Shown piece after piece: positions 9,825 to 57,870 of a stretch of DNA of 64,000 nt (positions are counted from its first letter, which is position 1; every line of letters begins with the position of its first letter). A model generated the notes under the pieces. It made no database searches, was not told where the DNA came from, and saw only the letters and a program-made list of their open reading frames with translations. The stretch is taken from positions 81,518,053 to 81,582,052 of the forward strand of contig OY720344.1 of the NCBI GenBank assembly GCA_963082975.1, written 5' to 3'. Position numbers and translations under genes: made by a program. Source of the DNA: Labia minor (lineage: Eukaryota; Arthropoda; Insecta; Dermaptera; Spongiphoridae).

Positions 9825-9888
9825 AAAATCACTAGGTATTATGTAAGAGGCGAGAAGATAAATATTCATAATATAACATTAATTAAAA

Positions 9889-15729: not shown

Positions 15730-15741
15730 TAAAGTACGGTT

Positions 15742-34558: not shown

Positions 34559-34689
34559 ACTTTCCCGCATACTTCGTATAAGGGAAGTATTGGAATCGTC
34601 AAAAATTTCGACTTCGAGATTTCGATAGATCTTGACGTTTTAGACCTCCCTGAGTCGGAAAATACCATTTTTCGAATTATGTCTGTGTG

Positions 34690-34720
<31 letters not shown>

Positions 34721-35166
34721 TGTCTGTGAGCAAATTTACTCAAAAACTAATCAAGCTAGGGCTTCGAAATTTGGTACACCGATATTATTCACAGTTTGTA
34801 GATTTCTATCAAAATTTGGTCAAAATCGGTTAACCGAAAGAGGTACTTTACCTACACTGGTTGCGTTTACCTTTCAAGTAAAGTACCAGTTTGCTTAGAG
34901 ATATTTGCTTCATATTTTGTATTTAGATTTAAAAATATGAGAAAAATTCAGATACCAAATTTCATCATGATCTGACTACCGGAAGTATCATTTTACCTAT
35001 ACAAGTAGTGTTAGGTGTAAATTATAAATATATATAATAGTGTTAAACCATTTGACTTTATAATTTAAATTAATTAGTTTGTTTATTTTTATTGTTGTTA
35101 AAACATAATAATAATAACCTAATTACCTATTTATATGCGGGAAAGTCTAGGGGAGGACACTCCCGC
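34559..35166 (+). mobile_element. Family D DINE-1-like element, 608 bp, single copy
   Basis: The 5' end ACTTTCCCGC forms an imperfect hairpin with AGGGAAGT. It is followed by AATTTCGACTTCGAGATTTC, a (TATG)n microsatellite (34689-34719), CTTCGAAATTTGGTACACCG and AAAATCGGTTAACCGAAAGA. The 3' end has GCGGGAAAGT (35137-35146), the complement of the 5' repeat, then a hairpin GGGAGGACACTCCC ending at 35165. The order of parts is that of families A and B, with different end sequences. Confidence 0.82.
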
Positions 35167-37519
35167 TTTTTTTATTTTTGATTACATTTAAATATTTATA
35201 TCACTTAAAAATAATAATTGTTATAATTTTTATTATAATTATTTATTATATTATAATCTTTTAGAAATATTTTTAATTTATAATTAGTTAATTTTATTAA
35301 AAGAATATTTTTATTTTTATATATAGGTATTGTAAATTCAAATCAACGAAAAGTAAATGCGACAAACAAGGTCTTAAAATTTATAGAAAAACAATATGTA
35401 TTTTAATATAATAATAATTAATTAATAAAAATAATTCTTAATAAGATAATTAATCATATTTATATTATATACTCTTAATATCCTTTTAAATAATCTTATA
35501 TTTAATTGTAATTATCAGTATATCATTGGAATAATAATAAAAAAAACTTATTAAAATTATAAAAACTAATTATAATATTTTAGAATAAGTTAAACTTTGA
35601 AATGGTATATTAATATATTTATACAATTTAATATTAATAATATAGGCTTAGATAAATAAAAAAAGTGATTGTGCATGTAATGATATGATAGAATTTAACT
35701 ATGAATACACAAAATAATGTATTTTTAAAGAATGTTTATCATTTATAAACATCCTTTGAGAAAGTTTGAAATATATATATTAAATTTCGATGTATTTATA
35801 AGCCATTCTTTACAAATCTCAAATATTTATATAAATTTAAATTTAAATAGTACATATTAATATTTTAGATCTTAATTTAATTTTTAACTAAAAATTTTAA
35901 ACTTGATCAACAAAATAATTTTCCTTTTATTTATTTATTTTTAAATACTATAGATAAAATAATAAAGAAATTATACTGAGTGATTAATTAATAAAAACAA
36001 AAATTTAATGATAAAACCATTTTCTAATAAAAAGTTATAATTGATGAATTTTGATGAATTCTAATTTTGATACAATATTAATGTAGCGAATGATTGGAAC
36101 AGAAATACGAAAATTTAAACAAAAAGTACCTAAACAAAGGTGGGAAAAGGTCACTTACTACCTGACTTAGAGGGTTTAGGTAACTATTCAAACAGATGGT
36201 TTATTGGTATATGAATAGATTCGTGATTGAAAAGTGATAAAAGAAAGATTTTTTTCCTTAAATATAATAGTAATAGATTCATATATTAAATTCAGAGCAC
36301 GAATTTAAAATTACTTTCCAAATTTTCTTTAAGTTAAGTATATCTAAAAAAGATACAAATATGTTTTAAGAAAAATATTACAATATAAAAAATCGGTAAA
36401 ATTTCTATAAAAATGAGAGAAAGTCAATCAGAGCAAGTTTTAACTTTTTTTCTCAAAGTTAATAAAACTTTACGAATATATATATATATTATACAATATT
36501 TAAATTTTATAAACTTGAAAAGTGCGATTTTTTTTTGTTTTAAGATTCTTAATAAAATTTTATAAAGAAATTTTTTAAATTCTTTTTTATTTGCATCTAA
36601 AGTGGGTTTAAATATATATTTTATTTTCTATTAAAAATGTTTTTCTACATTTATTCCTTAAACATTTACCGTCATTATTATTTAATTTTTAAAAATCATA
36701 ATTTTTATTGATGATAATTATATCGTTTGATTAATTTATAAGTATATATATATATATATATATCTTTATTATCTGTATTATCAGGTGTGGAAATAGTGTT
36801 ATGCTCTTAAATTAATTTATTTTTACAACTTATCAATATATATTTATACTCTATTAATAAAATTTAATGTTATTAAATAAATATTTATATTGATTAAATA
36901 TTTACAAATATATAAATAATAATATTATTAAATGCAGTAAAGTAAAGTAAGTAGTTATATACTATAAGAAATCAGTAGTATTATAGAATTATTTAATTTA
37001 ATTTAATTAGTTAATTAATTTAATTATTTAATAATATATTTATTTCTTTTTATAAAAACTTATTCATCCCCGCCTCTAGTCTACTTTATTATTCGGATTG
37101 GAATGCATCGTTTATTTATGTTTTCCCCCACAAGGTCTTGTCCTTGAATTTTCTGGCCAGGAAATAAATTGACAAGATTTTGCAAGTGTTTTTCATTAAG
37201 AAAACAAATAAACATCTTCTTATTTAAAACATTCAACATAGAATGAAATAAAAAGAATATATTATTCGGTTTTTTTATTCTTCTTTTAATTTATGGAAAA
37301 TTTTATTATAAGTTATGTGTAAGAAATATTTTATTAATAATGTTAGATATTTTAAAAGTTATTGTTTTATTTAAATGTTGAGTGTACCTGTATCTGATGG
37401 AGACATTAGTCTTCGTTGTTCACCAAAGGTGAACAGGTTTTTTTTTTTTGTTTTTTTATATTATTATAATTTCACCGATATATTTTTATCACAATTTTAA
37501 TGGATTTTTAAAGCGAATG
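35167..37519. other. AT-rich gene desert
   Basis: (TA)n at about 36744-36761. A perfect short inverted repeat GTTCACC-AAA-GGTGAAC lies at 37418-37434. No gene seen. Confidence 0.5.
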
Positions 37520-37745
37520 TTACATTTTGTATGAACAGAATCTAAATTGAAATTTGTGGCCATTCCATTTAGCCAATCGGATCAAGTGAAATAATTTAAA
37601 ACGAATTGAATGAGTGCATCGGAAAGCGGGAAACGATTGAATGACGGACGCCAACAAACTGGACCGGCTAACAGCTGAGAATTTAGGTTGGCACCACTGA
37701 AATGCATCTGCCAAAAACCACGTGAGTTACACTCCCACTCATCGC
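37520..37745. promoter_or_regulatory. GC-richer promoter-like or exon-like island
   Basis: Contains AGCCAATCGG (CCAAT-like), several CpGs, an E-box CACGTG, and ATGCATCTGCC...CAC|GTGAGT, a possible short first coding exon with a good donor at about 37720. A 64-codon - strand frame also spans it. I recognise no product, so this may be the 5' end of a gene or an old repeat. Confidence 0.3.
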
Positions 37746-39120
37746 CCCTCCCAACATTTAATGTAAATAATGTAAAAATAAAAATAAAATGATAATCATG
37801 TATTCAAATATTTCACATTTTTTATTGAAATAATGAATAAACTAATATAATAAATAACTTATAAAGATAAATATATTGTAATAACTTATTTATTTATTTT
37901 AATGAAATAAATAATTATAGTTTTTATATTACTCTTAAGATAGCGCGAGTCTTCAATCACCCATTATCCGATTATAGAGATGTGCAAATTCGTTCCTTTT
38001 AATAACCCGTTATTTTGCCCGTTCATTGTTCTTTTTCAAAATTATTTTACATATGCTTAAATTACACACATTAATAAGAAATAATTTAGATTGTAGTAAA
38101 TATTTTTACTTAAAATTAAATTTATTATTACTATAACTATACTTATAATAATTATTGCTATTACTTTACTTATAATAATATATAAAGCAGTGAAAAAATT
38201 TACGACTATAACATATAAATAAATAAAATGAAGAGATAATAATCATTATAAATCTATAAATTTAAAAACATTATTTTACTTATAAATATAAAAGGGGTAC
38301 AATCGAGATTGTCATAATCTAACATGCTTTAAAAAAATGCACTTACAACTCATAAAGTTGCAGTAAAATAAATTTTATTAGATTCTTTATTTCAAAAAAT
38401 AAAAAAAAGATATCAAATAAAATAAAATTAAAAAAATAAAAAATTCAGAATTTTATTTTATGAAAAATAAATGATAGAACAAACTGTAAAATGATAGAGA
38501 CAAACGATCGGACTACTCAACACATTTGAACGGAGGTTTACCTATTATATTTATATAAACAAATAATATATTGTTAATGATAAATAATTAAGTTAAGTAA
38601 TTAATCAAATCTGAAATATTCCTAAGTTACTTATATGTTGATAAATAAATCTTTTAAAAATTCTAAACTTTTAGAAAATTTTATATTCAAAACTGGAGAA
38701 GAAATTTAAAAAAAATGTAACATTAAAGAGCTTAAATATATCGTTATTTTATTTAGCTTTAAATTTAAAATATATTTAAACTTTATTTTATAAGCCATAA
38801 TTATAAAGCTATTACGCCCATATATTTGTAAAATATTATTACAGTCATAAATAAAATGTAGTCCTACAGATTTGACCCACGGACAAATAATCAATTTGTT
38901 TAGTGGGCCCGGATGCCTAAACTAAATATTTCCCTATAGGAAGGGTGGGAAAACTTTATAATTATGATATTCCATAAATATTTACTATATATTTTTACTA
39001 AATAAAATATTTTGAGATTTTATTACAAGAATGACTTCTCTACTGAAATGTTCTAAAATTAGCATCTGAACATCATAATGCGAGAATGAAAATTAAAGGA
39101 TTCAAGCACGATCGAGGATT
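37746..39120. other. AT-rich spacer
   Basis: TAGAGATGTGCAAATTCGTTCC at about 37975 resembles a hAT-type end, but no partner was found. Nothing else recognised. Confidence 0.4.
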
Positions 39121-39148
39121 ACTATAATTAGACGGTGCTTATGACACG

Positions 39149-39243
39149 ATAAAGTTTCAAAAAGAAGGCGCTATGTGGCAGCACTAAGCAGCTACCTAAA
39201 TGCTCAGTGCTGCCACCTAGCACTTGCTTATTTAAACTTCTTG
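39149..39243. other. Long imperfect hairpin (pre-miRNA-like or MITE relic)
   Basis: The arms around GTGGCAGCACTAAGCA (39175-39190) and TGCTCAGTGCTGCCAC (39201-39216) pair with a single G:U wobble. The loop is the 10 bases GCTACCTAAA. Pairing extends outward for about 20 more base pairs with small mismatches (TTTCAAAAAGAAG against CTTGCTTATTTAAA). Size and shape fit a microRNA precursor. I do not recognise the mature sequence. Confidence 0.55.
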
Positions 39244-40186
39244 ATCCTTGCTTATTGAAATTTCTTTCTGTTTAACGATAGGCGCTGAATGGAAATTGAA
39301 CTATGAACAACCTTTCATTTTGATCGGGTTATTTAGGAATGTCCCATCACTAAATTTAAAATAAATTATTTATAAGAAAATAAATCAATAATTTTTAATT
39401 TTGTCACCATTTTTAATTTAAATGCAAGCGTTTTATTTGAGAGATCCCTAGAAAATTAATTAACCAATTCATTTTAATTAGGCTCTTTATTTAAAGTATC
39501 TAGACCATTGTTGTTGAAGTGCTAAGTAGGCGGACCCTTGTAGAACCCCATCATGAAGAAGTATATACTTATTGAGGCTAAGAGAAAAATTATTTTCTAG
39601 TTTTTAGTGCATTTATAAATAAAAGACTGTAACTCTTAATTTTTGTTTTAATTATTTATTTTATACACTAGTAAATAGAAATAATTTAAAAAAATTATAT
39701 AAAATAATATTTTTTTATTGATTGTTAATTACCAAATGTATACTAATATAAATTACAATTAACAATTTTTCAATCCTGAGGAAGAGTGCACCCCAAACGT
39801 TGACGAAAAAATCTGAATTAAAGATTTTTATTTAAATTTTCTGGGTGACCTACATTCTGAATCTTCTATTTTAAAAATTTGAACCCATAAACATCATATT
39901 TTTTAATGAGTTATTTAAAAATATTAAATACTAAGTTCTAAAAGATCATATATTTTAATGATAAAATCACTTAATCCATGAGTGATAAAATTCAATAATT
40001 TAGACAGAGAAAAGAAAGTTTTTCAATTCAAATTAATTTAATTTAAATATTGCAACTTTATATATAGATAATTATTTAATTTTTAATTTAATTATAAGAA
40101 TAAATTATCATATTTATTTATTATTAAAATATTTGAATTCATTTTCAAGTAGGGGTGATGGACTAATAAATCATCATTATCCATAA
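39244..40186. other. AT-rich spacer with a Penelope-like motif
   Basis: 39776-39806 reads CCTGAGGAAGAG...CCCAAACGTTGACG, like the CTGA(N)GA...CGAAACG phrase of Penelope-like retroelements. 39581-39625 resembles one arm of the fold-back MITE at 23622-23980. Confidence 0.4.
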
Positions 40187-40188
40187 TA

Positions 40189-41066
40189 CGAGGTCTGTTC
40201 AAAAGAAAAGGTGAATTTTGCATTTCCGCAGGTCGTGTACATTCGATTATCGAAATTTTTTTGTTATGTTAAAATACATATGTTTCTAAAATGTTGACAT
40301 TTTTAGATAATTTGAATTATAGTAGTTTGTTTTTGACAACTGAAAAAATTAGTCACGATTTTATTTGTTTATCGATTTATTAATTAACAAAATGGATCAA
40401 AGAATCTGTATTAAATTTTGCGTTAAAAATGGAATAAAGTGCTCCAAGGCACTTAAAATGTTTACTGTGGCATTCGGCGAGTCTACTTTGTCTCAAAAAA
40501 ATGTTTATAAGTGGTACAGAAGGCCGAGAAGTTCGATTAAATATTAAGGTTTTGCTCACTGTTTTCTTCGATTACAATGGCGTGGTGCATCATGAGTTCT
40601 TGTTAACAGGTCGTACTGTTAATAAGGAATACTACAAGGAAGTTATGAAATGTTTGTGTGAAGCAATACGGCTCAAACTATCAGAATTGTGGAAAAAAAA
40701 TATCATGGATTCTGCATCACGATAATCCACCAGCTCACAAATCATTGCTTGTTCGTGATTTTTTGGCCACAAACAACAACGTAATCATGCTTCAATCACC
40801 ATATTCACCAGATTTGGCTCCCTGTGACTTTTGTCACAAAATTGATAAAAGGAAAGCGTTTTGCCCCAATTGATGAGATAAAGTTGGAATGAAAAACGAG
40901 CTGATGACCATACTGAAAAGCGCATTTCAGAAGTGCTTCCACGATTGGAAGAAGCGCTGACATATCTGAGGGGAATTACTTTGAAGGAGACAAAATGGAT
41001 ATTGATGAATAAATAAATACTTTTCGAAATAATTCAAAATTCACCTTTTCTTTTGAATAAACCTCG
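40189..41066 (+). mobile_element. mariner element 2, internally deleted, 878 bp
   Basis: Inverted ends CGAGGTCTGTTCAAAAGAAA and, inward from the right, CGAGGTTTATTCAAAAGAAA both continue with AGGTGAATTTTG. TA lies on each side (40187-40188, 41067-41068). These ends differ entirely from mariner 1, so it is another subfamily. Confidence 0.93.
40392..41012 (+). pseudogene. mariner transposase pseudogene, second subfamily
   Basis: Starts MDQRICIKFCVKNGIKCSKA and runs to VYKWYR. A large central deletion then removes the linker and the first catalytic aspartate. It resumes at VLLTVFFDYNGVVHHEFL, GRTVNKEYY, HHDNPPAHKSLLVRDFL and YSPDLAPCDF. The two visible aspartates are 34 residues apart (D34D). 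The tail FQKCFHDWKKR then HI and SEGNYFEGDKMDIDE follow, with stops and frameshifts between. It is non-functional. The type is common in insect genomes as SETMAR-like transposase copies. Confidence 0.9.
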
Positions 41067-41068
41067 TA

Positions 41069-41787
41069 TGATTGAAAAAAAATATTATTTTTTTTATTAA
41101 AAATTAATTTTTATTGATCATTGATACTGTTATAATATATGTATCCAGGTATAAATAAATATGGATGTTTTAGTATAATAACCAGAATAGATTTTCTTCT
41201 ATTGAATTTAATTGCTATTGAATGATTTTGTGGTGAAGATGAATCAAATAGTATCAAGGACAAGAGCAACAACAATTTATTGCTGGTCCTAATCTACATC
41301 TGTTATTGCATTTAATGAATTTATGAGCTGAGAGAGCAAGGATAGAAATGAAGGCTGCCATAACAACAACAAAATGTTCGTTTTTATGGATATTATCATA
41401 TTTAAGTATTAATGAATTTCTATATTTTAAATTTTAAAGTTTTCTATGAAAGACTAATCAATAAATCTTTTAAGATACTTAACACAAAAACATAAATGAT
41501 ATTTTATCTAAAAGATAATTTTATTATATAAATTTTATAAAAAAGTGGGATACCTTATATTCTATATAATAATAAGTATTAATAAATAAATTATTTAGCT
41601 CTAAGTCGCGCTATGACTACAACGACAACAATCTTCCAATCATTCCAATTCGCAGACAAGTATCTCCCCTCCCCAAATTACTATTCTCTTCTAATTCTTT
41701 CACGTCTAATTTTTTATTATATTATTTCGGCTTAACATTCATGATCATAACCTCTTTTTCAATATATTTTTTCATAAATACATTTTT
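41069..41787. other. AT-rich spacer
   Basis: 41235-41390 is less AT-rich and non-repetitive, with CAACAACAA words. No gene recognised. Confidence 0.45.
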
Positions 41788-41904
41788 ACTATCTCGTAAG
41801 AGATAGTATTGCGATCACGAAAATTTTCAATGACGAGATTTTGATGTTTTTATACGTTTTGAAGGTTCCTGAATCATTTTCACTAAGGTTGAGAAAAATG
41901 TCTG

Positions 41905-41936
<32 letters not shown>

Positions 41937-42381
41937 GGCAAGATTACGCAAAAACGGTTTGAGCTAGAATGATGAAATTTGGTACATGGACATTATTCAA
42001 AATTCATAGTTTTCTATCAACTTTTGAGAAATGTAGCTCAACCGGAAGAGGGTCATTACTTACAACGTTTTGATTTTTTTTCCTCTAAAGTGACCGTAAA
42101 AATAAAAATATATGTTTGATAATTTTTCACATGATTAATAATTGTATAAAACTGCTATATATAGAATTTCAGCTTGATTGAATTGCTGAAAGTACCAGAA
42201 TTAATTTTTTAATACTGCAAATCTCACGCGCGAACACGTGCCATGGTGCCATCAATAAAAAGCCAAACATGCGCTGGTTTAATATTTATTATTTATAATT
42301 AATTAAATTTAATTTAAATATAATATATTATGTTATTTAATCCAATTCAAATTGCGAGATAGTCGAATGGAGACACTCCAG
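41788..42381 (+). mobile_element. Family A DINE-1-like element, copy A5 (reference copy)
   Basis: Cleanest member. The 5' inverted repeat and hairpin ACTATCTCGTAAGAGATAGT is at 41788-41807, (GT)n at 41900-41930, ATGAAATTTGGTACATGG near 41971, the 3' repeat GCGAGATAGT at 42354-42363, hairpin GGAGACACTCC at 42369-42379, then AGCTTATT. It does not code. Confidence 0.9.
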
Positions 42382-43423
42382 CTTATTTATTAAGCTTTAT
42401 CCTTCAATTATAAATATCTTGTATATATTAATTTTCCCGTTTTTATAAATTTAATTATTTGGGATGTGCATAAATGAGGTGAACTACTCCTTATAATATG
42501 TTATTTTCAGCTCATATTTTTTAATTTTATTTTCCAAAGACTTAAATCTATTCCTATTTGTCATGAACTTTGACTTCCACTCATGCAAACCGAGGCATAA
42601 GTTCCGTATGGCTGGCACGTGCCACTGGCGCCACGTGAAAAGCACCTAATGTTAATATATAAATATAATATATATATATATAAATTTAAAAACAAATGCA
42701 AAATATGGGATTACAAGAAATGGAAAATACAAGATGAAAAATCCAATTTCCGAAAATAAAACATCATATCTATTGCCCGAAAGGAGCGCAAGATCGTTGT
42801 TGGCCATAAGTGCCATTTATTCAAGCTAAGCCTCTCCAACTAATCGTTTTATATATTTTAACTTTAATAAGAAAAAATTGAATCATTTAAAATAATAAAT
42901 AAAATAATGTTTGACTAAATATAATATAAAAATGTCTAGCTATACAATAAAATTGAATTTAAAAAAATATAATCTAATTAAATGATAATGGAGATAAAAA
43001 TAAATGTTATATTAATTAATAAATAATGCATTTTAATAATTAAAGAGAAATAAATAGATTACCTGAAAATCCTCGGGCGGTCAACATGTCATAGTTTGCT
43101 TAAAGCTCTCGTTATGAACTAAAATAATTTATTTAAATAATATATTTATTCCCAGAAAAGTTAGTTTAAAAATAATTATGGATTATAAAATTTTTATTGT
43201 AAAGTTAGTTCTTATATATTATTAAACAATAAAAAGTATTAATATTTATTATTAATTTACTTTTAGGTCTAACTTATTGTATAATATAATTTGGTTTAGT
43301 GGAAGCTGAAATTAATTTTAATTATATACTTATATAAATATATATAATATTAATTTAAATAACATAAAAATACTTTAAATACTATAGAAATCTCTTTATT
43401 CTATTTATATCAATGTAATATCT
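42382..43423. other. AT-rich spacer with an E-box palindrome
   Basis: TGGCACGTGCCA at 42613-42624 is a 12-bp palindrome, followed by TGGCGCCA and CCACGTGA. 42770-42840 is GC-richer. No gene seen. Confidence 0.45.
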
Positions 43424-43431
43424 ATATAAGG

Positions 43432-44701
43432 CAGATGTGGCCAAACATTTAGCTTTTAGGGGCTACTTTTTCAATAAAAAATAGTCTGCGGTCGACTATG
43501 GTTATGGGCAAATAATTTTAAAATTTTAGAAGATAATTAAAGAAGTTATTATATCGCCGATTTAAATTGCAAACCTCCACTTTTGGTCAAAAATTACATT
43601 TTCACACTATTAGAAAGAGAAAAACACCTTACATTGGCTATGAAACAGCGCTATTATGCACCTATTTAATTGAAATCACGTGACAAGCAAAAAATATATC
43701 CGTTTTAAGAAAGTTGTGCAAAATATGCTGAATATGTGTTAGCAGGTTTGCAATCTAAGGCGACGATATATTTTTTATTTTATTAATTCCAACAATATTT
43801 ATCAAAATTTTTAAAAATACAATGTTAAGAAATAAACATATTTTTTATTTTATGAATTCCAACAATATTTATTAAAATTTAAAAAAAAATCAATGTCAAG
43901 AAATAAATACGAACAAAACAAATTTTACGCATACAATTTTTATTTGGATGAAACCTGGCATTGCATAAGAGCAACAAGTTTCTCAAAATTTGGCTCATAT
44001 GAACTTAAAGCAATTCTTAAGCATGACTCTAAATGTAGATCCGTTAGTTGCGATCGCTGTTTTGTTTTGATCGCATTCATATAAGTAAATGCGGATTCAC
44101 ATAAATATGTGGGGCCAAAGAAGGCATTGAAACGAGCAACCATTGTCCAAATATTTGGATATTTATCTTTGCTTATTAGTTTCCAAAAATTGTTATCTGA
44201 AACCATTGATTTTAGATTTATATCGCATTTAATATTTAGTATTTCTTCTAATTATGCTATATTTGTAGTATTAAGAAAATTATGAAGTTTCTGAGCAAGA
44301 CTTTCAACGTCGATGTCATTAAATGGGTAAGATAAAAAACAGGCAATATCTTCAAGTTCACTTAGTTTGAGAAATCTTCTATCAAATTCATTTAGAAGCA
44401 TTCCAATAACATCAGCATATTTGTCGTAAGCAACAGTCTTGTTATTTTTAGATTCATCTGCCAGATTTTGATAGTGTTTTAAATCACGACACTTTAGTTG
44501 CATTGCAAGCATATTTAATTTTTCCTTAAATGACTTCAAATTGCTAAATATAAACAGTATGTGTATGTTTCACATATAATTTATTATTGTAAGATTAAAT
44601 TAAATTATAGAATTAAGAATTTCAAACATTTATTTAAGTTAGAAAAGATTGTTCAAATTTGATTTTACGGGCCTTTTAGGTCGACTTGTTGGCCATCCCT
44701 G
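43432..44701 (-). mobile_element. hAT element, 1270 bp, with perfect 8-bp target duplication
   Basis: The flanks are ATATAAGG at 43424-43431 and again at 44702-44709. The ends are related but gapped inverted repeats: CAGATGTGGCCAAACATTTA on the left, and CAGGGATGGCCAACAAGTCG inward from the right, both followed by CTTTTAGG or CCTAAAAGG words. The remaining transposase is on the - strand. It is much shorter than an autonomous hAT (usually 2.5-5 kb), so the middle was deleted. Confidence 0.92.
43940..44563 (-). pseudogene. hAT transposase C-terminal region (GTF2IRD2/EPM2AIP1-like type)
   Basis: One frame runs LFIFSNLKSFKEKLNMLAMQ ... EFDRRFLKLSELEDIACFLS ... LNTTNIA, meets an in-frame TAA near 44251, and continues in the same frame with LEEILNIKCDINLKSMVSDN, FWKLISKDKYPNI, FGPTYLCESAFTYMNAIKTK and LTDLHLESCLRIALSSYEPN. 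The last part is the hAT C-terminal dimerisation region (YPN...A.R..A.FG.TYLCE.AFS.M...K...R..LTD.HL...LR). The N-terminal BED finger and first catalytic residues are absent. A single stop codon is the only lesion in the remaining reading frame, suggesting a fairly recent death. Confidence 0.88.
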
Positions 44702-44709
44702 ATATAAGG

Positions 44710-45594: not shown

Positions 45595-46083
45595 ATTTTT
45601 ACTATCTCGCCAGAGATAGTATTAAAAACACAAAAATTTTCAATGTCGAGATTTTGATGTTTTTATACGTTTTGAAGGTCCCTGCGTCATTTCCACTAAG
45701 GTTGAGATAAATGTGTGTGTGTGTGTGTGTGTGTGTGGACAAGATTACGCAAAAACGGTTTGAGCTAGAATAATGAAATTTGGTATACGGGCATTATTCA
45801 AAATTCGTAGTTTTCTATCAATTTTCGAGAAATGTAGCTCATTCGGAAGAGGGTTATTATCTACCGTGTGTTTTCAATTATTTTCCTCTAAAGTGACAGT
45901 AAAAATAAAGATATATGTTTGATAGTTTTTCACAAGATTAAAAATTGTATAAAACTGCTATATATAGAATTTCAGCTTGATCAACAAAGAGCCAAACTCG
46001 CGCTGGTTTAATAAATATTATTTATTAATTTTAATTTATAATTTAATCTATTCTTAATATAATAGTCGAGTGGAGACACTCAA
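45595..46083 (+). mobile_element. Family A DINE-1-like element, copy A6 (internal deletion)
   Basis: 5' hairpin ACTATCTCGCCAGAGATAGT, then (GT)n at 45714-45737 and ATGAAATTTGGTATACGG. The block after CAGCTTGAT joins directly to CAACAAAGAGCC, removing about 100 bp present in A5. The 3' end is TAGTCGAGTGGAGACACTCAAG, with one arm of the terminal hairpin mutated. Confidence 0.85.
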
Positions 46084-46863: not shown

Positions 46864-47197
46864 CCTAATATGAGATATCTCAATCCTTTCACCGATCCCA
46901 CAAGACTATGGGAAAATAAAGATTCTGTATTTCTATGCAATTTTTGTTCTCAAAAATTAATGTACTCAATTATGAAATGTTTCCCATTTTCTATCTTTTT
47001 CAGAAATTTTTGAAATAGAAGTATCTGCATTGTTTTATTTTGAGTTAATAATTATCATTAATTAAACAACTTTGATTAAATAAAATTAATATATTTTCAA
47101 ATACATTTTTTTCAGAAGACCTTTTGAATATAAGATATATAATATATATATAGAATATAAGTCTCATTTTGGGAACACTTAGTATCTCATATTAGGC
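46864..47197. repeat. Inverted repeat pair, possible MITE
   Basis: GCCTAATATGAGATA (46864-46878) is a perfect inverted copy of TATCTCATATTAGGC (47183-47197). The match extends outward with a small gap into ACAACA / TGTTGT. The element would be about 350 bp. No clear target duplication was found. Confidence 0.5.
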
Positions 47198-47310
47198 AAC
47201 CTGTTGTCTGAACAGATAAAAACTACATTTTAAGTAAATTAATTTTTTGAACCAATTTAATAAAAATCAATGGATATATGAATCCATATACTTAACTAAA
47301 GAGTAAAATA

Positions 47311-47575
47311 AACCTCTGACTTTGTACGTCCTACGCAAGAACAACGCCTATCAAGCCGGTTATATCAATGAGGGGTCCTATGATCAGTAGAACGGGTCCT
47401 CTCAACCTTTACCTTGATTTTCTTGATCGGAGGCGCTATCAAGTAGCTTTTCCCCAATGTTGTTCCCGGAGGCTGGGTTGACTCCGTCCCATAGACCCCA
47501 GCTAGGGAAACTCCTTTGCAAGGCCCGGGACTTGAACCCGGGACCATGTGAATGTGAACACACCCAATGGCGTCT
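47311..47575 (-). repeat. tRNA-derived SINE, copy 3 (longest copy)
   Basis: About 265 bp on the - strand. B box GGTTCAAGTCC sits in CCCGGG...CCCGGG, then the body, then a 3' tail with CATTGATATAACCGGCTTGA, GGCGTTGTTCTTGCGTAGGA and ending ACAAAGTCAGAGG. The A box is decayed. This copy and 61169-61292 define the 3' end. Confidence 0.85.
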
Positions 47576-47775
47576 TTATCTAGAGAGTATTTATCAAAAT
47601 AAATAAAAGAGTATCCATATTAGGGCACTTTCTCCTATCTATATTGAGACAAAACCACCCTTGATAATAGAAAATGTAATAGTAAAAATAGATTAGCTAA
47701 AAATTAAACTTGAATTAAAATGTCTCAAAATTCAACATTTCAATTAATTCTTGTTCACTCGCCTGTATACAAAAT

Positions 47776-47777
<2 letters not shown>

Positions 47778-47810
<33 letters not shown>
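47778..47810. repeat. (TA)n microsatellite
   Basis: Uninterrupted AT dinucleotides directly before the GC-richer block at 47811. Confidence 0.85.
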
Positions 47811-47812
<2 letters not shown>

Positions 47813-48633
47813 AACAAGCCATTTCGAATCCCATGTGCACAAAAATAAAGTCTCCGAGAGGGCAGTCCTTCTGTTCCAACATACATGCTTTATCTCTTTT
47901 CTACTTCCTTGACTTTCCCCCTGCTCTCCTGTTCTGAATCCTGCTGTGTTTCCGGCCATTTTGGCCACTTGTTTACCTGCCTTTGAACTGAGCAAGTCAT
48001 TTTACCACTTCTGAGCGGCGTTGAGCCTGCTTTCTCCTTCGTTTCCATTTGGTGGATTGATCAACGGCAAAAAGTGTTTGTTTGAAGAGTTTGTTTGAGA
48101 AAAGTGTTTGAGATCCTTTTGCTCGAAGATACCACCATCTGAACCCCCTCATCCTCTTCCTTTCTATATTGTATTCCTTTCCTTACTTCATTCCCCGCAA
48201 GAGCTATCTTTGATCCAACACGGCCATCTTACCAGAACATCTAGCCTTTAGTTGAAGAAGTTCGTAGCTACAAGCGAACACTGGTCTCCAAGAGAAGCAG
48301 CGTCTGTTCTGTGCATTGGACGCGTGGCTTGATTGAAATTCCTGCCCTATTAACCTGGTTTGATTGATTTCATTCTGTTTATCTGTATATAGTTTTTGTT
48401 TTAATCAAAATATTAATTATTTTAAATAAAAAGCTCAGAAAAGAATATATTTGAGTGTACTTTCCTTATTCCAAATATCACGATCCATTACCTTTCGTTT
48501 AGAGTCAAAAACTCTATCTCTCTTCAGGTTATTTTCGAGAGAAAATAGCTTGTAATAATTCCAACGACAATAAGAATCTCTTTCTGAGAAATTCGAAGTT
48601 CGACCTGGGATTATTACGTTAATGTATTAAACA
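47811..48633 (+). other. GC-richer non-coding block, candidate solo LTR
   Basis: Clearly less AT-rich than its surroundings for 800 bp, with no long frame on the + strand. It begins TGAACAAGCC after TATAT and can be ended at ...TTAAACA before TATAT, giving TG...CA and a possible 5-bp duplication, but both flanks are low complexity. Inside, TGTATATAG (TATA-like, about 48389) precedes AATAAAAAG (about 48426), as in a U3-R arrangement. A - strand frame at its left end (MLSSKAGKQVAKMAGNTAGF) is unrecognised. Confidence 0.3.
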
Positions 48634-50010
48634 TATATATATTTAAAATCATTTGGAATCCATCTGCACCCACATAATGTATACAATATACAATTATTCC
48701 ATGATTGTAAATATGTATATATAATATTATTAAACCACCAACAAAAAGTATAAAAATAAAATATAAGTTTTTGTTTGTCCAGCTTGTGTACATATTTCTC
48801 ATTCACTAATGAGGTTAGTCAGGTGGGGTCGCCCAAGGTTTTCGCCCTTTGGCACGTGATTCATATCCTCCCCCCTTTTGGGCGGCCTTCACGATCAACG
48901 CATATTAGCCATTTATGGAATATTCTGTTTTCATAGCTTCTTAATAGTGATTTTTATAATTATTCATAAGAAATATGATTTATTAATATTTAAGTTAATC
49001 TTTGAGTTTACGAGTTATAAATCTGTCAGTTTTCAAATTCTACAAATTTAAATTATTATTTATATTATTAATTAATTTAATCAACCAATAAAGCAACTAA
49101 AAGACGCAAATCATTGACAACCACCAAAATATATATTTATATAAATTTGGTCACTAGTGATTTACTGGACAAGAGAGCAAAAATTTCTTTTTTTAAAAGA
49201 CAACTTTTTATGGAAATGGATTTATTATTACAATAAAATAAAAAATAATTAATATTAATATCAAAATTTAAAACTTAAAGCGTAACTGAAATTGTGTAAA
49301 CATGAACTATGGAATTTGAAGAAAAGTTCACAAAAGTTAAAAATTGAAAAATACAAAATAATTAAAAAAATAATTAAAGAACAAATGGCTAAGATAATTT
49401 CGAACAGCTACTTACAAAAATACCTGTATTGATAAAGGTACATATTTAATTTTAATTTAAATCAAAACTATCAATATATTGGTACATTGGAAAACAGTTA
49501 TATTATCGTTTCAATCAAAATTAAACAAAATAAATAATGAGAGTTATCTCTGATTAAAATCATGAATAGAGAAAAAATTGGAGATGGCGTAATATCTAGC
49601 GCCGGCGCCAACCTCCAATCTGACATGACATATTTACTTTTTAAAAACACTTCTGACATTTCATTCCCCTTATATGGAACAAATTTAAGATTTACATAGT
49701 GTAAGAATAAATAATCTTATAAAATTTCTCTATCTTCAAGATATGTATATATATATATCTATAATATGTTTTATTTATAAATCAATATCAATAAATTATT
49801 AAATTAAGAATGTTATTTTTTAAATAATATATTTTTAGTATATTTATATTATTTTTATGTTATTGTAAAATGTATCAATGTATCACATATATTCTATAAA
49901 AAAATAAAATACATTCATATAATTATTATTATTTACGAAATTTGATAATAAGAAAAACATTAATCAAATTTATAAAATAATATTTTAAACTAAAAGTTTC
50001 GGTTAGATTA
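48634..50010. other. Spacer
   Basis: 48815-48900 is GC-rich (GGGTCGCCC, CCCCCCTTTTGGGCGGCC). 49580-49625 has GAGATGGCG and CGCCGGCGCC. No gene recognised. Confidence 0.45.
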
Positions 50011-50013
50011 AAA

Positions 50014-50373
50014 GAACAGGTCAATAAGTCCATGACTTTTTGAATGAAACACAGATTTTAGGATAAAAAATTGTTTTATTTTTCAACATAGAGTCCTTTG
50101 AGCCATTTCTTCAGGTTTAGAAACAAGAAATAGTCGCTAAATCCGAAGAAAAGGATGGATGAGAGAGCAATTCATGGATTTTCATGAAAATTCACTTTTT
50201 TCCATTTTCCATTTTCTCAAATCACAAGGTACTCTTCTATTAATGGATGTCAAACAAAAATTAAAAGACCCAGCTGGTTCAAATTTCGATAGGAGTCAGC
50301 TGATGAGAGGAACAGTGTTGCCATTTCATTTAAGAGACAGGAAATTCAAAAAGTCACGGACTTATTGACCTCG
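50014..50373. mobile_element. mariner-derived MITE, about 360 bp
   Basis: Ends share AGGTCAATAAGTCC, then A or G, then TGACTTTTTGAAT in inverted orientation. The right end is CGAGGTCAATAAGTCC. TA is present on both sides (50009-50010, 50374-50375). The ends are mariner-type but unlike mariners 1 and 2. A 69-codon frame inside shows no transposase motifs. Confidence 0.8.
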
Positions 50374-50375
50374 TA

Positions 50376-51288
50376 TTTAACAAATTTTTCATACTTATTC
50401 AAAAAGTAGGACAATATCATAGAATTGAATTTTGAGACTTGAGGAGAAAGGGACAAATCCCTAAAGTTAACAAAAATTTAGTCATAAAAACTAATAATAG
50501 TTATAAAGAAATTGCGTAGATTTGCTAAATTGACATATATCCCGAAGGTCAACTAAAAATATATATATTATATTTTTATTTTGGTAAAATTTGAGAAAAT
50601 AGCTAACAATAAATTCCTTCATTATGTAACTTTCGACTCCTTATTAATTCTTCATCTCCGTCTTTTAATGTCTTCCATTTATAGAGTCATCTGTTGTGTC
50701 TCCGTATTTATCTCTTGATTATTTATCACTTTGCTATTCATTAATCTTAAACCTTTATTATATTTATTATTTATGAAAATAGAGAGAGAAAGAGAGATTT
50801 AATTTTGCAATACGTTCTTGACTGATTTAAAATAACAATGTTTGAATTGGGTTTTTCTAAATTTCATCTAATATGGATATACGTGTTTTGTATTGATGGG
50901 CACAGAGAGGGGGGGGGCGTATTAAAATGTATACTTATTATATGTATTTACTTTTTAAATATTAGATGAAACTCATTTATTATAAAATTATTTGTATAAT
51001 TTCATAATTATAATATACGTATATATATATATATATGTATAATCATTATTAAAATTAATTTTGATGAATGGATAAATATTATTTTTAGCGAGGGATTCTA
51101 TCTTAATAAGCCAAAAGATTTTTGAGGAAAAAGTTAAATTTTATTAGGAACGGGTTCGCCTAGTCAATTCATAAAACTTAATATTGAATTTTTTTAATTT
51201 TTATATAAATCTTTTGAGACACTTAAAAATTAACTCGAATTCATATAAAAATCAAATTTAACAAAAAGTAGTTGAACACAAAATTAAA
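50376..51288. other. AT-rich spacer
   Basis: A nine-base G run is at 50909-50917 and (TA)n at about 51019-51036. No gene. Confidence 0.5.
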
Positions 51289-51296
51289 GTCTATAT

Positions 51297-51552
51297 CAGT
51301 GATTCCCAAAGTGTCCACGTTGCCGTCATTAGGGAGTCGCCAATTAGATATTATATATTATCCCAAGGAAAATAGTAAGTATAAGTTTTTAATTTTACGC
51401 TGTTAAATGGGTAATCGCTTTTAAAAAAGGAAAGTTTTCCAATTTTCAAAGAAAGTCAAAAATTTAGAAAAAAAAATCTGATGTATTGAGGGCACCGGGG
51501 GAAAAATCTGATTATTTTGGAGCCGCAAACCGGAAAAGATTGGGAACCTCTG
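51297..51552. mobile_element. hAT-type MITE, 256 bp (type CAGTGATTCCCAAA, copy 2)
   Basis: Ends are CAGTGATTCCCAAAGTGT and, inward from the right, CAGAGGTTCCCAATCTTT. Flanking 8-mers are GTCTATAT and ATCTATAT (7 of 8). It shares GGAGCCGCAAACC with the copy at 28700. Confidence 0.85.
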
Positions 51553-51560
51553 ATCTATAT

Positions 51561-54500
51561 CATCAATCAGTTACCCATCTTGATCATTTTCTGACCAGTA
51601 AGTTTCATAATATTTACTTTTCCAAGAAAATTTATTTTATAATGACCAATACTAAAACAAAATATTTATTGAATTTTATATGATATAATTATTTATACAT
51701 ATATAACATTTCAAACCTTATGAAATAATTCAAAAATAATTGGCCAGTTAGGTTATGATGCATTTCTAAAATAGTCGACAAGATCATTTGGGCTGACAAC
51801 CTCTGATTTATTGTTTTCTTATCAAACCTAAATTTATACCTATATAGTATTGTCTTGTGGTTTATTGATTAATTTTTGATCAAATAAATGTTTTCATTTT
51901 AAAAATGGAAAATAACTAAATAAGAGAATAAAAACTATTTGTAACCTTTGGGAGTGTTGTCAAAAGAGGATGTTAGTAGGCGCTTTTGGTTCCTAAATGC
52001 GTTTGAAGTGACCAGCCTGGAATGACGTGTCTTTAGGAGCTGTATAAGGTTGGTTTCCCACCCGGAGTTGAGTCATTCAGCACCTGGATTCGCTTCCTTT
52101 CTGAGTGGCACCTTCGCCATTCACCCACATCTGACATCATTCCAAAGAGACAAATCAGTTCACCAGATGAAACATCCTTCCATTATTCACTCGAGTTTCC
52201 AGCAAATATATATTATATTATATATATTTTCTATTATATCTTCTAATGATCAATTTTATCAAAGGAACATGCCTATTACTTTTCTGTATAAATAGATAAT
52301 ATTAATAACATTAATAAAGAAATTTTTTTAATTCACTTCCTGTTAAAGTTTTCTTTTCTCATTCCAATGTTTCATAATGATTATTATTGTTTATCCTTCT
52401 GACCTGATGAACATAATAATAATTAATAATACAGTTTTTTTCAGGATAATTAAATATATTTTGTCATAATTATTACTAATTATAATTATAATTTTATTAT
52501 ATTTTAAATGTATTGTAATTATAATACAAATATAAATGTGAGATTTTGCTATTTCTTTATATTTCATGTACAAATAAACTATTTTTTTACGTTTTAACGA
52601 TTATATCTCTATTTGTGTAAAGGTGTAATTTAAATCTTTAAGGTGTTTCAAAATACATATACTATTACTGGTGATTTGTTCTAATTCAAATTTTCTATAA
52701 GTTGTGGAATCTATTAGACATTTTGAAAAATATTTTTTCTTATAAATTTATTTACAACTTTTTCAGAACTACATATTAATCAGTTTAGATAATTAAATTG
52801 ATATGTTAATATTTATAGGATCTAATTCTTTTTACAGATTTCCGATTTTTAAAAATTATTTACATTTTTCCTCAGGGTTATACATTATCTGTTTCCATTT
52901 GATTTCTCAACTTTCCCAAGTTTCAAGTATATAATGTATTTAACCACCAACTATTTAATATATTTTCATCAACAATATTTTATAATAGATAGAATTTTAT
53001 TATTATTTTTTAAATAAATTTTCATAAGTGAGTTTAAAAGTAAGTGATTCCATTGACAAAATAATATTTATAGACCATAATTCTTTATTCTATCCAATCA
53101 AGTAACTAATAATTAGCAATTTCATATATTACATTTTCATTATTCCATTTGAGCAACAACAACAACAACATATAAAGCATTTTTGTATGTGATAGCCTTG
53201 TCCCGATTTTACTCCTTAAATTATGAACCTTAGTAATAGTTAAAGAGTGAGAGAGAGAGAGAAAGGGAGAGAGAAGAGAATGGTTTATTTATAGACACTT
53301 TTATTGTAAAATCCACGACTGGATCTGATTAAAAGTACCATGAATATAAAGGTGAAATTTTATTAATGATTCACGAATTAGCCTTTTTATCTCTCTCATT
53401 GGCTCATTCTCTTTGCCTTATATACCTATATAGAAGAGATATTTAATTATATATCCTCGTGTCATCTGATTAAAGTGATGATTTATTAACAAATTTATTA
53501 TAATGAATCAATTAATATGATTTAAGTATGGATTCTACATTTATCGTTATACTAATATTTTATTTTAAATTTCAACAAATCTTTTAATTATCTGAGGAAA
53601 AGGTATCCAATGTTTTACATATTATGACGAGTGTCTCTATTACTTTTCTATTTTAATTTTTTTTATCAATTAATACTAAATAATTAAAAGGAATGAATCA
53701 GTATCTTCGCCTTCATTTATATTTATTCATTTTTCTTTTATTAATTTCAGGGAGACTTTTTGTAGATAAATTTCAATATTTTAAATACACCTATATTATG
53801 TAAATCACTTTTTAAAAAAAATATTATTATTATTATTATTATATTTCCATAAACTTGGTGAGATTTCAACTATTGATCTCAATTTTTGTAACTCTGATCT
53901 AAACCAATAAGCTACGTATGATATAATATTATTACAATTATTAGTATCAAAATCAATCAACAATCATTGACCTACCCTCGTATTTATTTCTTTTCAAACA
54001 CAGCTTTAATAATTATTCAAAAAGATTTTCCTTTTTTATTAAATATAATATAAAGTATAATAGTAACTTAGTAATATAGTTATAGTCTTGGTACGCAGGA
54101 CTTGAAATTGATCACTTAGATTCAAGATTTAATAATCAATTTCAAATAAATAAGAAAACTGACTCTATAATGGGTATAGATCCCTAAATAACCACTAAAA
54201 TTTAAAAAAAAATATTAATTACATTATTAATTACAAATCAATTACTATTTAATTAGATGAAATTTTAAAATATTTAGATATATATATATTTAAGATAATT
54301 TTAATAATTAATTCAAATATTTAAATTTATTTTGTTAATATAAACAGATATAAATATTCGAATCTTCCTTATCCTTTTGAAACCGTTCCATGTTTGCTTT
54401 TTTTTATTGTTGTCAAATAACAAACCTAACAACTGAAATAAAAATTGACATTTTATATCATATCATAATTTATCGTTTATTTATCTATTCACTTTGAATG

Positions 54501-55194
54501 TGTTTATTTATTTATTCTCTTATAAATAAGAAATCATCGAGGAAGTGCAATTTTGAAACATTTATTTCGATTTTATGTGATAATCGTTTCAAGCTAAACA
54601 TTAAAAGATTTAAAATGAAAATAAAATAAAATTTCCTAGAAGAAATCAGAGTGAAGAAAAATCGTGAACGTTTTTTTTTCATTTTTAATAGAGAAACAAA
54701 TCATAGGAGTGCAACAAAAAAAGAAGGATAAGGATCAAATATTATAATTGTTTTTATTTAACGTTTAATTCTTTTTATATCTTTGTTTTATGACAATCCT
54801 TGAGATCTTTGAATGGAAAAAATAAATACTTAGAATCAGATTGGAATGCGGATCAACGGATCAAATTACATTCATATATAGACATTTAAATTTTTTTCCA
54901 AATTCAAATTGAAATAAATAACCTTTTATTTATTTTTAAATTTTAGCAATATTTTTGAATATTTTAAAAAGTGCAAATCCCTTATGTTCCCCTTTCTATA
55001 AAATAAAACTTTTCAAAGGGGGCTAAGATATAACCCAAAAATACCATTTATAGACATAAAAATATAATTATCAGATATATAATATAGATAAAATATAAAT
55101 TAAAATATTAAATTAAATCTAATAATATTCACATTAATAAAATAAGAAGAAAAGAACCATAATCTTCCGACGTAAGTAGAATGGAATATTAAAT
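51561..55194. other. Mostly AT-rich gene desert
   Basis: 51940-52200 is GC-richer with an 81-codon + strand frame (MVSHPELSHSAPGFASFLSG) that I cannot assign. (CAA)n at 53155-53170, (GA)n at 53249-53278, (ATT)n at 53823-53843. Nothing else recognised. Confidence 0.45.
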
Positions 55195-56437
55195 ATGAGC
55201 TGTGGCCATGCATAGAGCAGACCGAAGATTTGAAATAAATTAATTTCCTAACAAGATTATATGTATATATATATCTAATCAAAAACATTCCTGTTAAAAA
55301 GGGGGCCAAGTTCCTATCGGCTATTTGTTTGCCTAAAAAAGGGTTCAAATCCATCCCAATGCCAAGATTAGATGCACTTTAAAATCAATCATAATCATTT
55401 TCATCAACAGCCTGACCCACTGGTAAACATTTGGCATTCCCAAGAATCGCCACCATTCCCAGTCCCCCGCCTCCTGCATCCAGGCACTACACGCCACTTT
55501 ATTCGCGTCAACGGTCCATCTGGCCGAAATTCACTTTACCATACACCCAACTTAAAATATGGTATAGTTGTTAAAATACGTAGGTACTTGGTTTAAAATA
55601 TCTAAAATTATAATACTTAGAAATTTGAACTTGGCAGGTTAATTTATATATATAAATAATAAAAATATAATTATACAATTAATCTAGTATTACGTACAGC
55701 ACGAAAACCTGCCAAGTTCAAATTTATAATTATATGCCAAATTTCACACTGCTAGGACAATTGGAAATACCTTAATAATTTTGTTGTCCAATCAGTGAAT
55801 CAGTGCCAAAATAAGCTATTTTCACAGGGTCATATTTCAGGATCTACTGAAGCTATATCTATGCAATTTGGCATACTACTTTATTTCTAGTATATGACTA
55901 CGTAGATAAAATTTTATCTCTGTACTTGCAATAGGCACTGAGATACAGGGGGTCAAAAGTGACTCCAAACCATTCGTGTAAATATACTTACGGCATGCGC
56001 TCGGCTTGCTGGAAACTTGGCCGGCGTACTGCCGTGCGCATAGATACTAATATATATAAAGTATATAAAAAATATTTTTAAAACTTGAATTAAAATGACT
56101 AAATTATATTATCTTAGTTTTTCTTTTTAGTTTAATTAATCAATTAATTTATCAATACTATATTTTAAGTGAAATATTTTCTAACAATGAATATAAAATT
56201 AATACTTTGTAAACTACCACTTCTGGTTTCCGGATATACACCAACTACAGATGCATTAAGTAAATATACCAAATTTTATCAAAATCCGTTCAGCCGTTCA
56301 AGCTATACACGTTTATACGGATACACAATGGACAGACGGTCGGACAGACATCATGCTAAATAATACTTTTTTCTGTTAACAAAATTCATGATTGGTGGAG
56401 ATATGTAAAAATCTCCTCATGTGAAATTTGGTCGGTT
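55195..56437 (-). mobile_element. Family B DINE-1-like element, copy B6, split by an insertion
   Basis: The 3' part (GAGCTGTGGCC, TTGAAATAAATTAATTTCC) is at 55195-55261. The 5' part (AACTACCAC.TC.GGTTTCC, AAATCCGTTCAGCCGTTC, CATCATGCTAAA, GGTCGGTTAA) is at about 56045-56437. The two parts match the single-module copy B5 and are separated by about 790 bp of unrelated sequence. Confidence 0.72.
55262..56044. other. Unclassified insertion within B6
   Basis: 55415-55550 is C-rich with a 74-codon + strand frame (SPPFPVPRLLHPGTTRHFIR) of unknown identity. A perfect 20-bp inverted repeat AAATTTGAACTTGGCAGGTT is at 55621-55640 and 55706-55725 with a 65-base spacer. 55980-56040 is GC-rich. No transposase is visible. 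Confidence 0.5.
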
Positions 56438-57129
56438 AAAATTATAATAATCATTCCTAAAATTAAATTAAAACTAAAATTGAGAATTGAGAATTATAAA
56501 AAGTGATTCTTTATAAAAGCCCCCTTATAAGTAAAATGATTGGATTCTATTCCTAGAACCATTATCAATCCATTAACTAATAAGTTATATTAAAATTTTT
56601 TAATTTATTAATTTTACATTTAATTTGATTAACTGTAATTTTTAAAGTATAGACGAAGTCACTTTACGTTGTCTCTTGGCCTATTGTTCATATTTTATTT
56701 AATGCGAAAAACTAAGCTTTAAAAAACCTAGAGAAACACAACATTTTACTCAACAAATTTTAGGTGTATATTATATTATATTTAAGAAATTCTATGAATG
56801 AGCTCCATCCTGAATAGTCTTATATTTCCTAAGGTTATTTTCTATAATTTTTATTTATTTATTTTCTTCCTTAAATTAATTTAATTTAGAATTAAAATAA
56901 CATATTGATTTTATACTATATAACTTCGGGATATCCTAACTAAAATCAGAGGCCTCTTTCCTATCATCACCATTCAATCCAATCCCGCCCTTCATATAAA
57001 TAAATCCGGTTTATATTAATATTAACAATAACGATAATAAAGGAAAAGATTAATTATAAATGCCATTCATTTGTCTAACTAAATTGAATTGCCGACAGTA
57101 TTCATATTCATCTAAATTATATATATAAC

Positions 57130-57167
<38 letters not shown>

Positions 57168-57321
57168 CTAAGATAAATGTTAATTATATATATTAATGAA
57201 AAATTGTGTGCATCATTTATCAAAATATAAATTTTTAATTAATATAATAATTATAATAAATATAACTTAAAAACTTTACTTCAATAATAACATTTACTTT
57301 TAATATAATTATAATCATTTT
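56438..57321. other. AT-rich spacer
   Basis: (ATT)n tract at about 57130-57164. No gene. Confidence 0.5.
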
Positions 57322-57870
57322 TTACCGACCGACGATAGTAAGGGAGGTATTGTTTTCACACCAAATTTCACATGTGGAGATTTTTACATATTTTTTTAGC
57401 ATGATATCTGTCCGTCCGTCCGTCTAGATGTGTAGAGCTTGAACGGCTCAACGGATATTGATGAAATTTGGTATATTTACTTAATTCATCAATATGATGA
57501 ATTGATCAACTTTTGGTGCAAATCCGGAAACCGGAAGTGGTAATATTAGCGATCGACGATAGGAAGGGAAGGGTTATTTTCCCACCAAATTTCACATTGT
57601 ATTGGTTTTATCCTCGAGAAAAATCATCTTTATTAGTTTTTTCTTAATTTAAAATTATATGACGTCATCCAGTCATTCATGACGTCACAGCCTGGTCTTA
57701 CATATATATATTATAAATAAAATAAAATTAAAAATATTTATGTTATATCCATATCTGTTTTTTATTACATTAATAGATATATTAAAATTATTTGAAATTT
57801 TTTCTGTAGCTGGAAATTAATTTACTTCAAACCGTCGGTCGGTTCGGACCTGGCCACAGGTCAACTTATT
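57322..57870 (+). mobile_element. Family B DINE-1-like element, copy B4
   Basis: The 5' end is ACCGACCGACGATAG. Two modules follow, both slightly deleted (the first lacks CTCCACGAATCATGCAT). TGACGTCA pairs are near 57661-57687, the 3' repeat CGTCGGTCGGT is at 57833-57843, hairpin GACCTGGCCACAGGTC at 57847-57862, then AACTTATT. Confidence 0.88.

Follow-up and report, generated by a model that had tools for sequence, protein, structure and literature searches.

Three DINE-1-like families in the dermapteran Labia minor and related Helentrons with which they share ends

A 64,000-nucleotide stretch of the Labia minor genome (contig OY720344.1, positions 81,518,053 to 81,582,052; hereafter the window) carries three families of short repeats, A, B and D, that follow one blueprint and yet differ at their ends, and it raises the question of how such families arose and what moves them. 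We propose, with a probability of roughly 0.95, that the three families are non-autonomous, Helentron-associated and of the DINE-1 kind (HINEs), that A and D each arose by internal deletion from an autonomous Helentron of their own, as B very probably did too, and that three related Helentrons gave three families. This kind of mobile DNA is already known; here it is documented in one genome.

Layout and kinship of the three families

As determined by BLAST within the window, there are 13 copies (six of A, six of B and one of D) that together cover ~7.4 kb, in agreement with the thirteen copies and more than 7 kb reported in the initial annotation. Its reference copies A5, B4 and D were likewise recovered by window sequence and BLAST at the places and with the parts it had named. 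The copies and the parts of the reference copies are, in window coordinates (strict scan, see below):

11922..12465, minus strand: A1, family A HINE, inverted arm deleted, without 3' hairpin
27214..27814, minus strand: A2, complete family A HINE (strict scan)
29887..30481, plus strand: A3, family A HINE, microsatellite lost, TATTTTT behind the hairpin
31897..32488, minus strand: A4, family A HINE, GATTTTT behind the hairpin
41788..42387, plus strand: A5, reference complete family A HINE (strict scan)
41788..41807, plus strand: A5 5' subterminal repeat ACTATCTCG and inverted arm GAGATAGT, a hairpin with an 8-bp stem (folded in A2, which is identical there)
41900..42070, plus strand: A5 (TG)n microsatellite and core (AAATTTGGTA at ~41975)
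42355..42387, plus strand: A5 3' subterminal repeat CGAGATAGT, hairpin TGGAG-ACA-CTCCA, then GCTTATT
45601..46082, plus strand: A6, family A HINE, internally deleted, 3' limit approximate
9354..9823, minus strand: B1, member of a B subfamily whose 3' half differs (CTGTG..CACAG hairpin seen by eye), 3' limit approximate
9890..10527, minus strand: B2, complete family B HINE (strict scan)
10921..11544, minus strand: B3, complete family B HINE (strict scan)
19897..20524, plus strand: B5, complete family B HINE (strict scan)
56006..56434, minus strand: B6, partial copy belonging to the B1 subfamily, without a recognised 3' end
57324..57870, plus strand: B4, reference family B HINE, an insertion with paralogous empty sites (strict scan)
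57833..57870, plus strand: B4 3' subterminal repeat CGTCGGTCGGT, hairpin GACCTG-GCCA-CAGGTC, then AACTTATT
34559..35171, plus strand: D, complete HINE, sole family D copy in the window (strict scan)
34559..34588, plus strand: D 5' subterminal repeat ACTTTCCCGCATA and inverted arm GGGAAGT
34687..34865, plus strand: D (TATG)n microsatellite and core
35134..35171, plus strand: D 3' subterminal repeat TATGCGGGAAAGT, hairpin GGGAG-GACA-CTCCC, then GCTTTTT

The layout common to A, B and D begins with a 9-13 bp subterminal inverted repeat, behind which stands an inverted arm; the interior holds a microsatellite and a core with AAATTTGGTA, and on the 3' side the repeat has its counterpart, followed by a terminal hairpin. 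The exact repeat measures 9-10 bp in A, 11 bp in B and 13 bp in D, and the 5' arm pairs as ACTATCTC/GAGATAGT in A and as ACTTTCCC/GGGAAGT, with one bulge, in D; in B it is weak (5/7 by eye) and absent from the predicted fold of B1 and B5. The outermost bases are ACTATC, ACCGAC or ACTTTC at the 5' end and mostly CTTATT at the 3' end. A strict scan for an exact 9-nt subterminal repeat pair 250-1200 apart, followed by a perfect hairpin stem of at least 5 and CTT[AT]TT within 3 nt, returned seven whole layouts in the window (A2, A5, B2, B3, B4, B5 and D) and none in 40 first-order Markov shuffles, while the hairpin with CTTWTT alone occurred nine times against a shuffle mean of 0.2. All 13 window copies are recovered by a core profile, 12 of them having been in its training set and A4 not.

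The blueprint described in the initial annotation is thus found whole in seven copies, but others are incomplete or altered: A1 is without inverted arm and hairpin, A3 without microsatellite, A6 is internally deleted, and B1 and B6 have a 3' half unlike that of B2-B5, B6 without a recognisable 3' end. Similarly, the claim that the hairpin is followed by CTTATT or CTTTTT applies to the seven strict-scan copies (CTTATT in six, CTTTTT in D), whereas A3 reads TATTTTT, A4 GATTTTT, A6 AAGTCTTTTATT and B1 CTCATATT. The 3' hairpin itself, detected by the strict scan in A2, A5, B2-B5 and D, can be discerned by eye in A3, A4, A6 and B1 and is gone in A1 and B6. The 3' halves of B1 and B6 are 95% alike over 96 nt and stand apart from B2-B5, which marks a subfamily of B.

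The families had been described as unrelated in sequence, a view that leave-family-out profiles overturn: they match each other at E values from 3e-4 to 2e-35, the best match in a null of 640 kb of shuffled sequence being E 0.6. The D profile matched A2 from 16 to 607, ~590 nt (E 4.5e-30), and B3 from 20 to 289 (3e-9); the A profile matched D at E 2e-35 and B2/B3 at 3e-4; the B profile matched D at E 6e-6 and A5 at 7e-5. Judged by these matches, A, B and D are evidently collinear homologues outside their outermost ends, and the common blueprint reflects common descent. The A-D and D-B similarity starts directly behind the 5' subterminal repeat (positions 16-21), and the outermost ends themselves have diverged past recognition. 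The arm behind the 5' repeat covaries with the repeat in A (TATCTC/GAGATA) and D (TTTCCC/GGGAA). Between families the 5' and 3' subterminal repeats changed in concert, the adjoining sequence being still recognisable, and recognition of the ends by each Rep can therefore be tested by end swaps.

Helentrons that carry the same ends

The initial annotation assigned the repeats to the HINE/DINE-1 type and suggested a search for autonomous Helentrons with the same ends. Such elements are present, and the assignment is supported: open reading frames (ORFs) coding for Rep and helicase lie with both A ends, with both D ends and with the B 5' end, so that HINE and Helentron have both ends in common for A and D and the 5' end for B. 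Helitron_like_N has 104 matching places in the genome (all 126 first-look candidates were scored), and among 30 fetched loci the Rep motif reads GLPH in 23 and GSPH, the Helentron signature, in four, with none in the remaining three.

Outside those 30 loci, at C1:47868109, lies an ORF of 2181 amino acids with ERVEFQMRGSPHEH. It belongs to a Helentron of ~12.2 kb (C1:47862613-47874777, minus strand; A-Helentron copy 1), in which the A 3' end (A2 559-595, 37/37) is found 1,245 nt behind the ORF and the A 5' end (A2 1-494 and 287-522, 91%) ~4.3 to 3.6 kb before it; the 5' match starts at ACTATCTCGC and is preceded by a T-run. A search with the 2181-residue protein yielded at least three further copies and remoter relatives (22 of 1837 candidates scored). 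A-Helentron copy 2 (C1:44694181-44700650) contains stop codons and has the A 3' end 226 nt behind its ORF; over 249 nt there the two copies are collinear and 99.2% identical. Copy 2 is nested inside a D-Helentron whose outer ends match D 1-543 (93.6%) and D 566-607 (97.6%) and lie 13.8 kb apart, from C1:44706630 to 44692855. The B-Helentron (C1:55785335 onward) begins with B3 1-519 (92%). Its ORF is 98% identical over 1.8 kb to a second copy at C2:66557900, and the C2 pieces carry none of the A, B or D ends.

The Rep motif is RGSPHEH in the A, B and D partners, and RGSPH is the Rep signature of Helentrons (PMC4067079). In the A partner protein, DUF6570, Helitron_like_N and PIF1 score above the Pfam curated cut-offs (PIF1, E 1.9e-31), and the helicases of the B and D partners were assigned by homology to it. 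Over Rep and helicase the proteins are 55-58% (A-D), 50% (A-B) and 49% (B-D) identical, in agreement with A and D as the closest HINE pair in the leave-family-out profiles. The C-terminal part of the A partner, searched alone, matches Exo_endo_phos_2 (E 1e-4 to 3e-4), and a GDFN motif is visible by eye in this endonuclease region, over which the D partner is 34-36% identical to the A partner; the B partner aligns with the A protein as far as residue 1970.

Dense as HINEs are, separate HINE fragments might by accident flank unrelated Helentron genes, and the B-Helentron 5' fragment inside A-Helentron copy 1 illustrates that such pieces can come together. We consider this very unlikely for A and D. 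On either strand the exact A 3' end is met about once in 286 kb, so that ~0.005 would be expected by chance on the correct strand within 1.3 kb, a figure that may be a few times higher because inexact ends are commoner. Each of the two A-type ORF ends read nevertheless has the A 3' end behind it, in collinear sequence, and the A and D matches have the same shape, ~520-540 nt at the 5' end and ~40 nt at the 3' end. HINEs of families A and D would accordingly be Helentrons that retained approximately their first 520-540 nt and last 40 nt and lost the proteins. Three related Helentrons with three HINE families account for a blueprint that is common while the ends differ.

Insertion sites and competing origins

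T's occupy the 5' junction in all 13 complete copies (window and fetched loci), and at none of them was a target-site duplication of fixed length seen by eye; clean duplications of that kind at many copies were what the initial annotation had named as a refutation. It had also proposed to inspect empty sites. A search with the joined flanks of eight copies in the window, in which 40 of 537 candidates were scored, yielded such sites for B4. Its flank crosses the junction to near its end at four loci and for ~20-36 nt beyond at another 26; all seven fetched of these 30 loci are paralogous empty sites that run uninterrupted across the position. B4 has six T's before it and two behind, and the empty sites have eight in four cases, nine in one and six in two. 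The uninterrupted sites place this one insertion inside a T-run, in which the gain of a T or two cannot be told.

Inverted repeats near both ends, AT-richness and high copy number are also what one would expect of miniature inverted-repeat transposable elements (MITEs) moved by a cut-and-paste DDE transposon, and mariner-, DDE_3- and hAT-like pieces are present in the window. We nevertheless regard this origin as extremely improbable: the ends are asymmetric, with a hairpin that lies beyond the 3' subterminal repeat and close to the terminus, the fixed-length duplication typical of MITEs is seen neither at the complete copies nor at the B4 empty sites, where the T-run is merely split, and what lies between the two A ends and between the two D ends are Helentron ORFs, although no search aimed at a DDE element with such ends was made.

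Canonical Helitrons (5' TC, 3' CTRR, A/T target) are young and common here too, 23 of the 30 fetched Rep loci reading GLPH against four with GSPH, and one canonical-looking element bears a core-like motif, which would be compatible with an origin of A, B and D from this group. Neither the ends of A, B and D nor the B4 empty sites show these hallmarks, however; the outermost bases given above, the presence of a 3' subterminal repeat, the T's at the junction and the RGSPHEH motif of the ORFs beside the A, B and D ends make a canonical origin scarcely credible.

Several observations weigh against descent from, and mobilization by, the partner Helentrons. Seven of the eight joined flanks matched only themselves, which leaves B4 as the one copy of the eight with empty sites. 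In the 11 kb that were read behind the B-Helentron ORF, no B 3' end appeared. A-Helentron copy 1 has a piece of B-Helentron 5' region, shared with the B-Helentron over ~1.8 kb at 89.8% identity, between the A 5' end and the ORF; of the other copies read there, copy 2 retains 128 bp of the 5' region, and copy 3, which runs off the contig on its other side, is unlike. The A 5' linkage, based on copy 1 and on 128 bp in copy 2, is thus less secure than the 3' linkage. Moreover, both A-Helentron copies end in GCTAATT and the HINEs A2 and A5 in GCTTATT, the D-Helentron copy is interrupted by stop codons, Exo_endo_phos_2 scores below the Pfam cut-off and is unlisted at E 0.001 for the whole A protein, and no transposition was observed.

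Movement of the HINEs by their partners is drawn from the Helentron literature. By analogy, the HUH Rep of the partner would recognise the subterminal repeats and the 5' hairpin and nick the 3' end beside the terminal hairpin, the PIF1 helicase would peel off one strand, and this single strand would join a T-rich target, perhaps opened by the endonuclease; HINEs would be carried in trans by the Helentron.

The literature consulted included PMC4067079, PMC9741609, PMC13317346 and PMC5240378. DINE-1/INE-1 of Drosophila (PMC4067079) is alike in its subterminal repeats, the arm behind the 5' repeat, the core, the microsatellite, the 3' stem-loop, a TT or T-rich target and a Helentron partner. Unlike DINE-1, three families with repeats of different length, and with partners ~49-58% identical, occur here in one window, and the DINE-1 core is likened by layout and not by its sequence. 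In the same source, subterminal inverted repeats measure 13 bp in DINE-1 and 12-15 bp in HINE-Mo, and 11 identical bp define a family, of which the repeat of family A falls slightly short. HINE-Mo and Helentron-Mo of the mite Metaseiulus (PMC4067079) resemble the present case in that the HINEs are internal-deletion derivatives of an autonomous Helentron and enter T-rich targets with a variable number of T's; unlike HINE-Mo, which are described there without inverted arm and core, A, B and D possess both, the arm being weak in B.

Abundance, a candidate protease and neighbouring elements

The assembly comprises 604 Mb in 71 contigs, and we counted exact 3'-end words on both strands with reversed patterns as controls. 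The A end (34 nt) occurs 2,039+2,182 = 4,221 times, the B end (35 nt) 7,376+7,385 = 14,761 times and the D end (33 nt) 940+944 = 1,884 times, each reversed control giving 0; together there are at least 20,866 exact ends. Seven of the 13 window copies match these words exactly (two A, four B, one D) against a genome mean of 2.2 per 64 kb, so that the window holds about three times the average and the totals are minimum figures.

OTU and VTD deubiquitinases have been reported in other Helentrons (PMC9741609, PMC4067079), which like the A partner combine Rep, PIF1 helicase and AP-endonuclease with an added cysteine protease of the ubiquitin-like pathway. Unlike these, the C-terminus of the A partner resembles Ulp1/SENP (C48), with matches below the cut-off: Peptidase_C48 scores E 7e-4 to 3e-3 in the C-terminal part and is unlisted at E 0.001 for the whole protein, and no OTU domain was listed. 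The best solved chain is SENP8 (E 0.004 for the last 200 residues, 0.016 for the last 486), a weak match that agrees with that to Peptidase_C48. The H-W, D-S, Q-Q-N and Y-D-C-G stretches of SENP8, which we take to hold its catalytic residues, align with the C-terminus of the A partner. In A-Helentron copy 2 this stretch is open and 97% identical, whereas copy 4 is 77% identical there and interrupted by stop codons. We give even odds to the reading that this weakly scoring candidate, with which the A-Helentron ORF ends behind the endonuclease, is a Ulp1/SENP-like protease, which would be a third kind of ubiquitin-like-modifier protease recruited by Helentrons. Ulp1 is reported in plant MULE elements and in a plant gene cassette; among the papers searched, none pairs Helentron with Ulp1, nor Helitron with peptidase C48 and endonuclease, and of those that name Helitron and Ulp1 a minority was looked into.

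Two further Helentrons were rejected as partners. F4 (C2:71968315 and three more loci), which begins TTTTTAGTTATACGAGGG, showed none of the A, B or D ends in the single copy compared fully, and a Helentron at L160 (1754 amino acids) has none within its 10 kb. Among 116 IMG/VR stretches with a 16-nt core word, none bears the core by profile at E 1e-3, and they were therefore taken as chance words; a literature search with GAAATTTGGTA returned only papers unrelated by title. The Helentron family with RGSPHIH at L150-L153 consists of four loci 99.7-99.9% identical, with the 5' end TTTTTAGTTATACGAGGG ~150 nt before the ORF (two copies compared). Near F4, a piece of the joined L157/L158 sequence (reverse complement 9224-9840) has the ends GTGGGGCGCA...TGCGCCCCAC and is perhaps an element with terminal inverted repeats.

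Pieces of a canonical-looking Helitron, TCTTATATATAAAATTCTCGTG..., lie at window 63120-63310 (minus strand) and in L160 (reverse complement, ~600-1110), where they end ..CAGCTAGT by eye. Their stretch AAACGGCTGGACCGATTCTAATGAAATTT resembles the HINE core (E 7e-5 in L160, 8e-4 in L154, 0.2 in the window), the best shuffle reaching E 0.69 and reversed sequence giving no match. That the core is a conserved piece of all rolling-circle elements was considered; it was seen in only one canonical-looking element type. A possible resemblance of the reversed core to the 3' tails of RTE retrotransposons was also considered. Canonical-type Helitron genes (QKRGLPH) at seven loci (L131-L137) are 99.9-100% identical over 3.5 kb, with frames of 1651-1652 amino acids in six of the seven and one locus at C1:82181971, ~0.6 Mb from the window; on this identity they were probably active very recently.

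The window further contains a three-copy repeat (6358-6465, 47450-47557 and 62501-62608) in which a stretch resembling a tRNA B box is visible by eye and which may be a short interspersed nuclear element; beside its first copy, 6557-6670 matches the B profile (E 9e-10). A two-copy repeat (5275-5402 and 62946-63073) is 81% alike, and 5109-5227 before its first copy matches the B profile weakly (E 0.05). A CEP19-like gene lies at 15733-16242 (E 1.7e-46), and transposase pieces lie at 13309-13605 (DDE_3), 40438-40725 (mariner-type) and 43940-44251 (hAT-type), those of DDE_3 and hAT below cut-offs; the gene and the mariner- and hAT-like pieces suit an animal genome, probably that of an insect.

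If the C48-like assignment of the A-Helentron protein holds, it would mean, taken with the OTU and VTD deubiquitinases, that rolling-circle elements repeatedly gain enzymes which remove ubiquitin-like modifiers (SUMO or NEDD8, perhaps, in this case), and this removal would belong to transposition or to the evasion of host control. For Labia minor, the number of exact 3' ends implies that the A, B and D families form a noticeable share of the genome. What began as a resemblance has become a documented case, with three HINE families, three related Helentrons, copy numbers and one insertion site.

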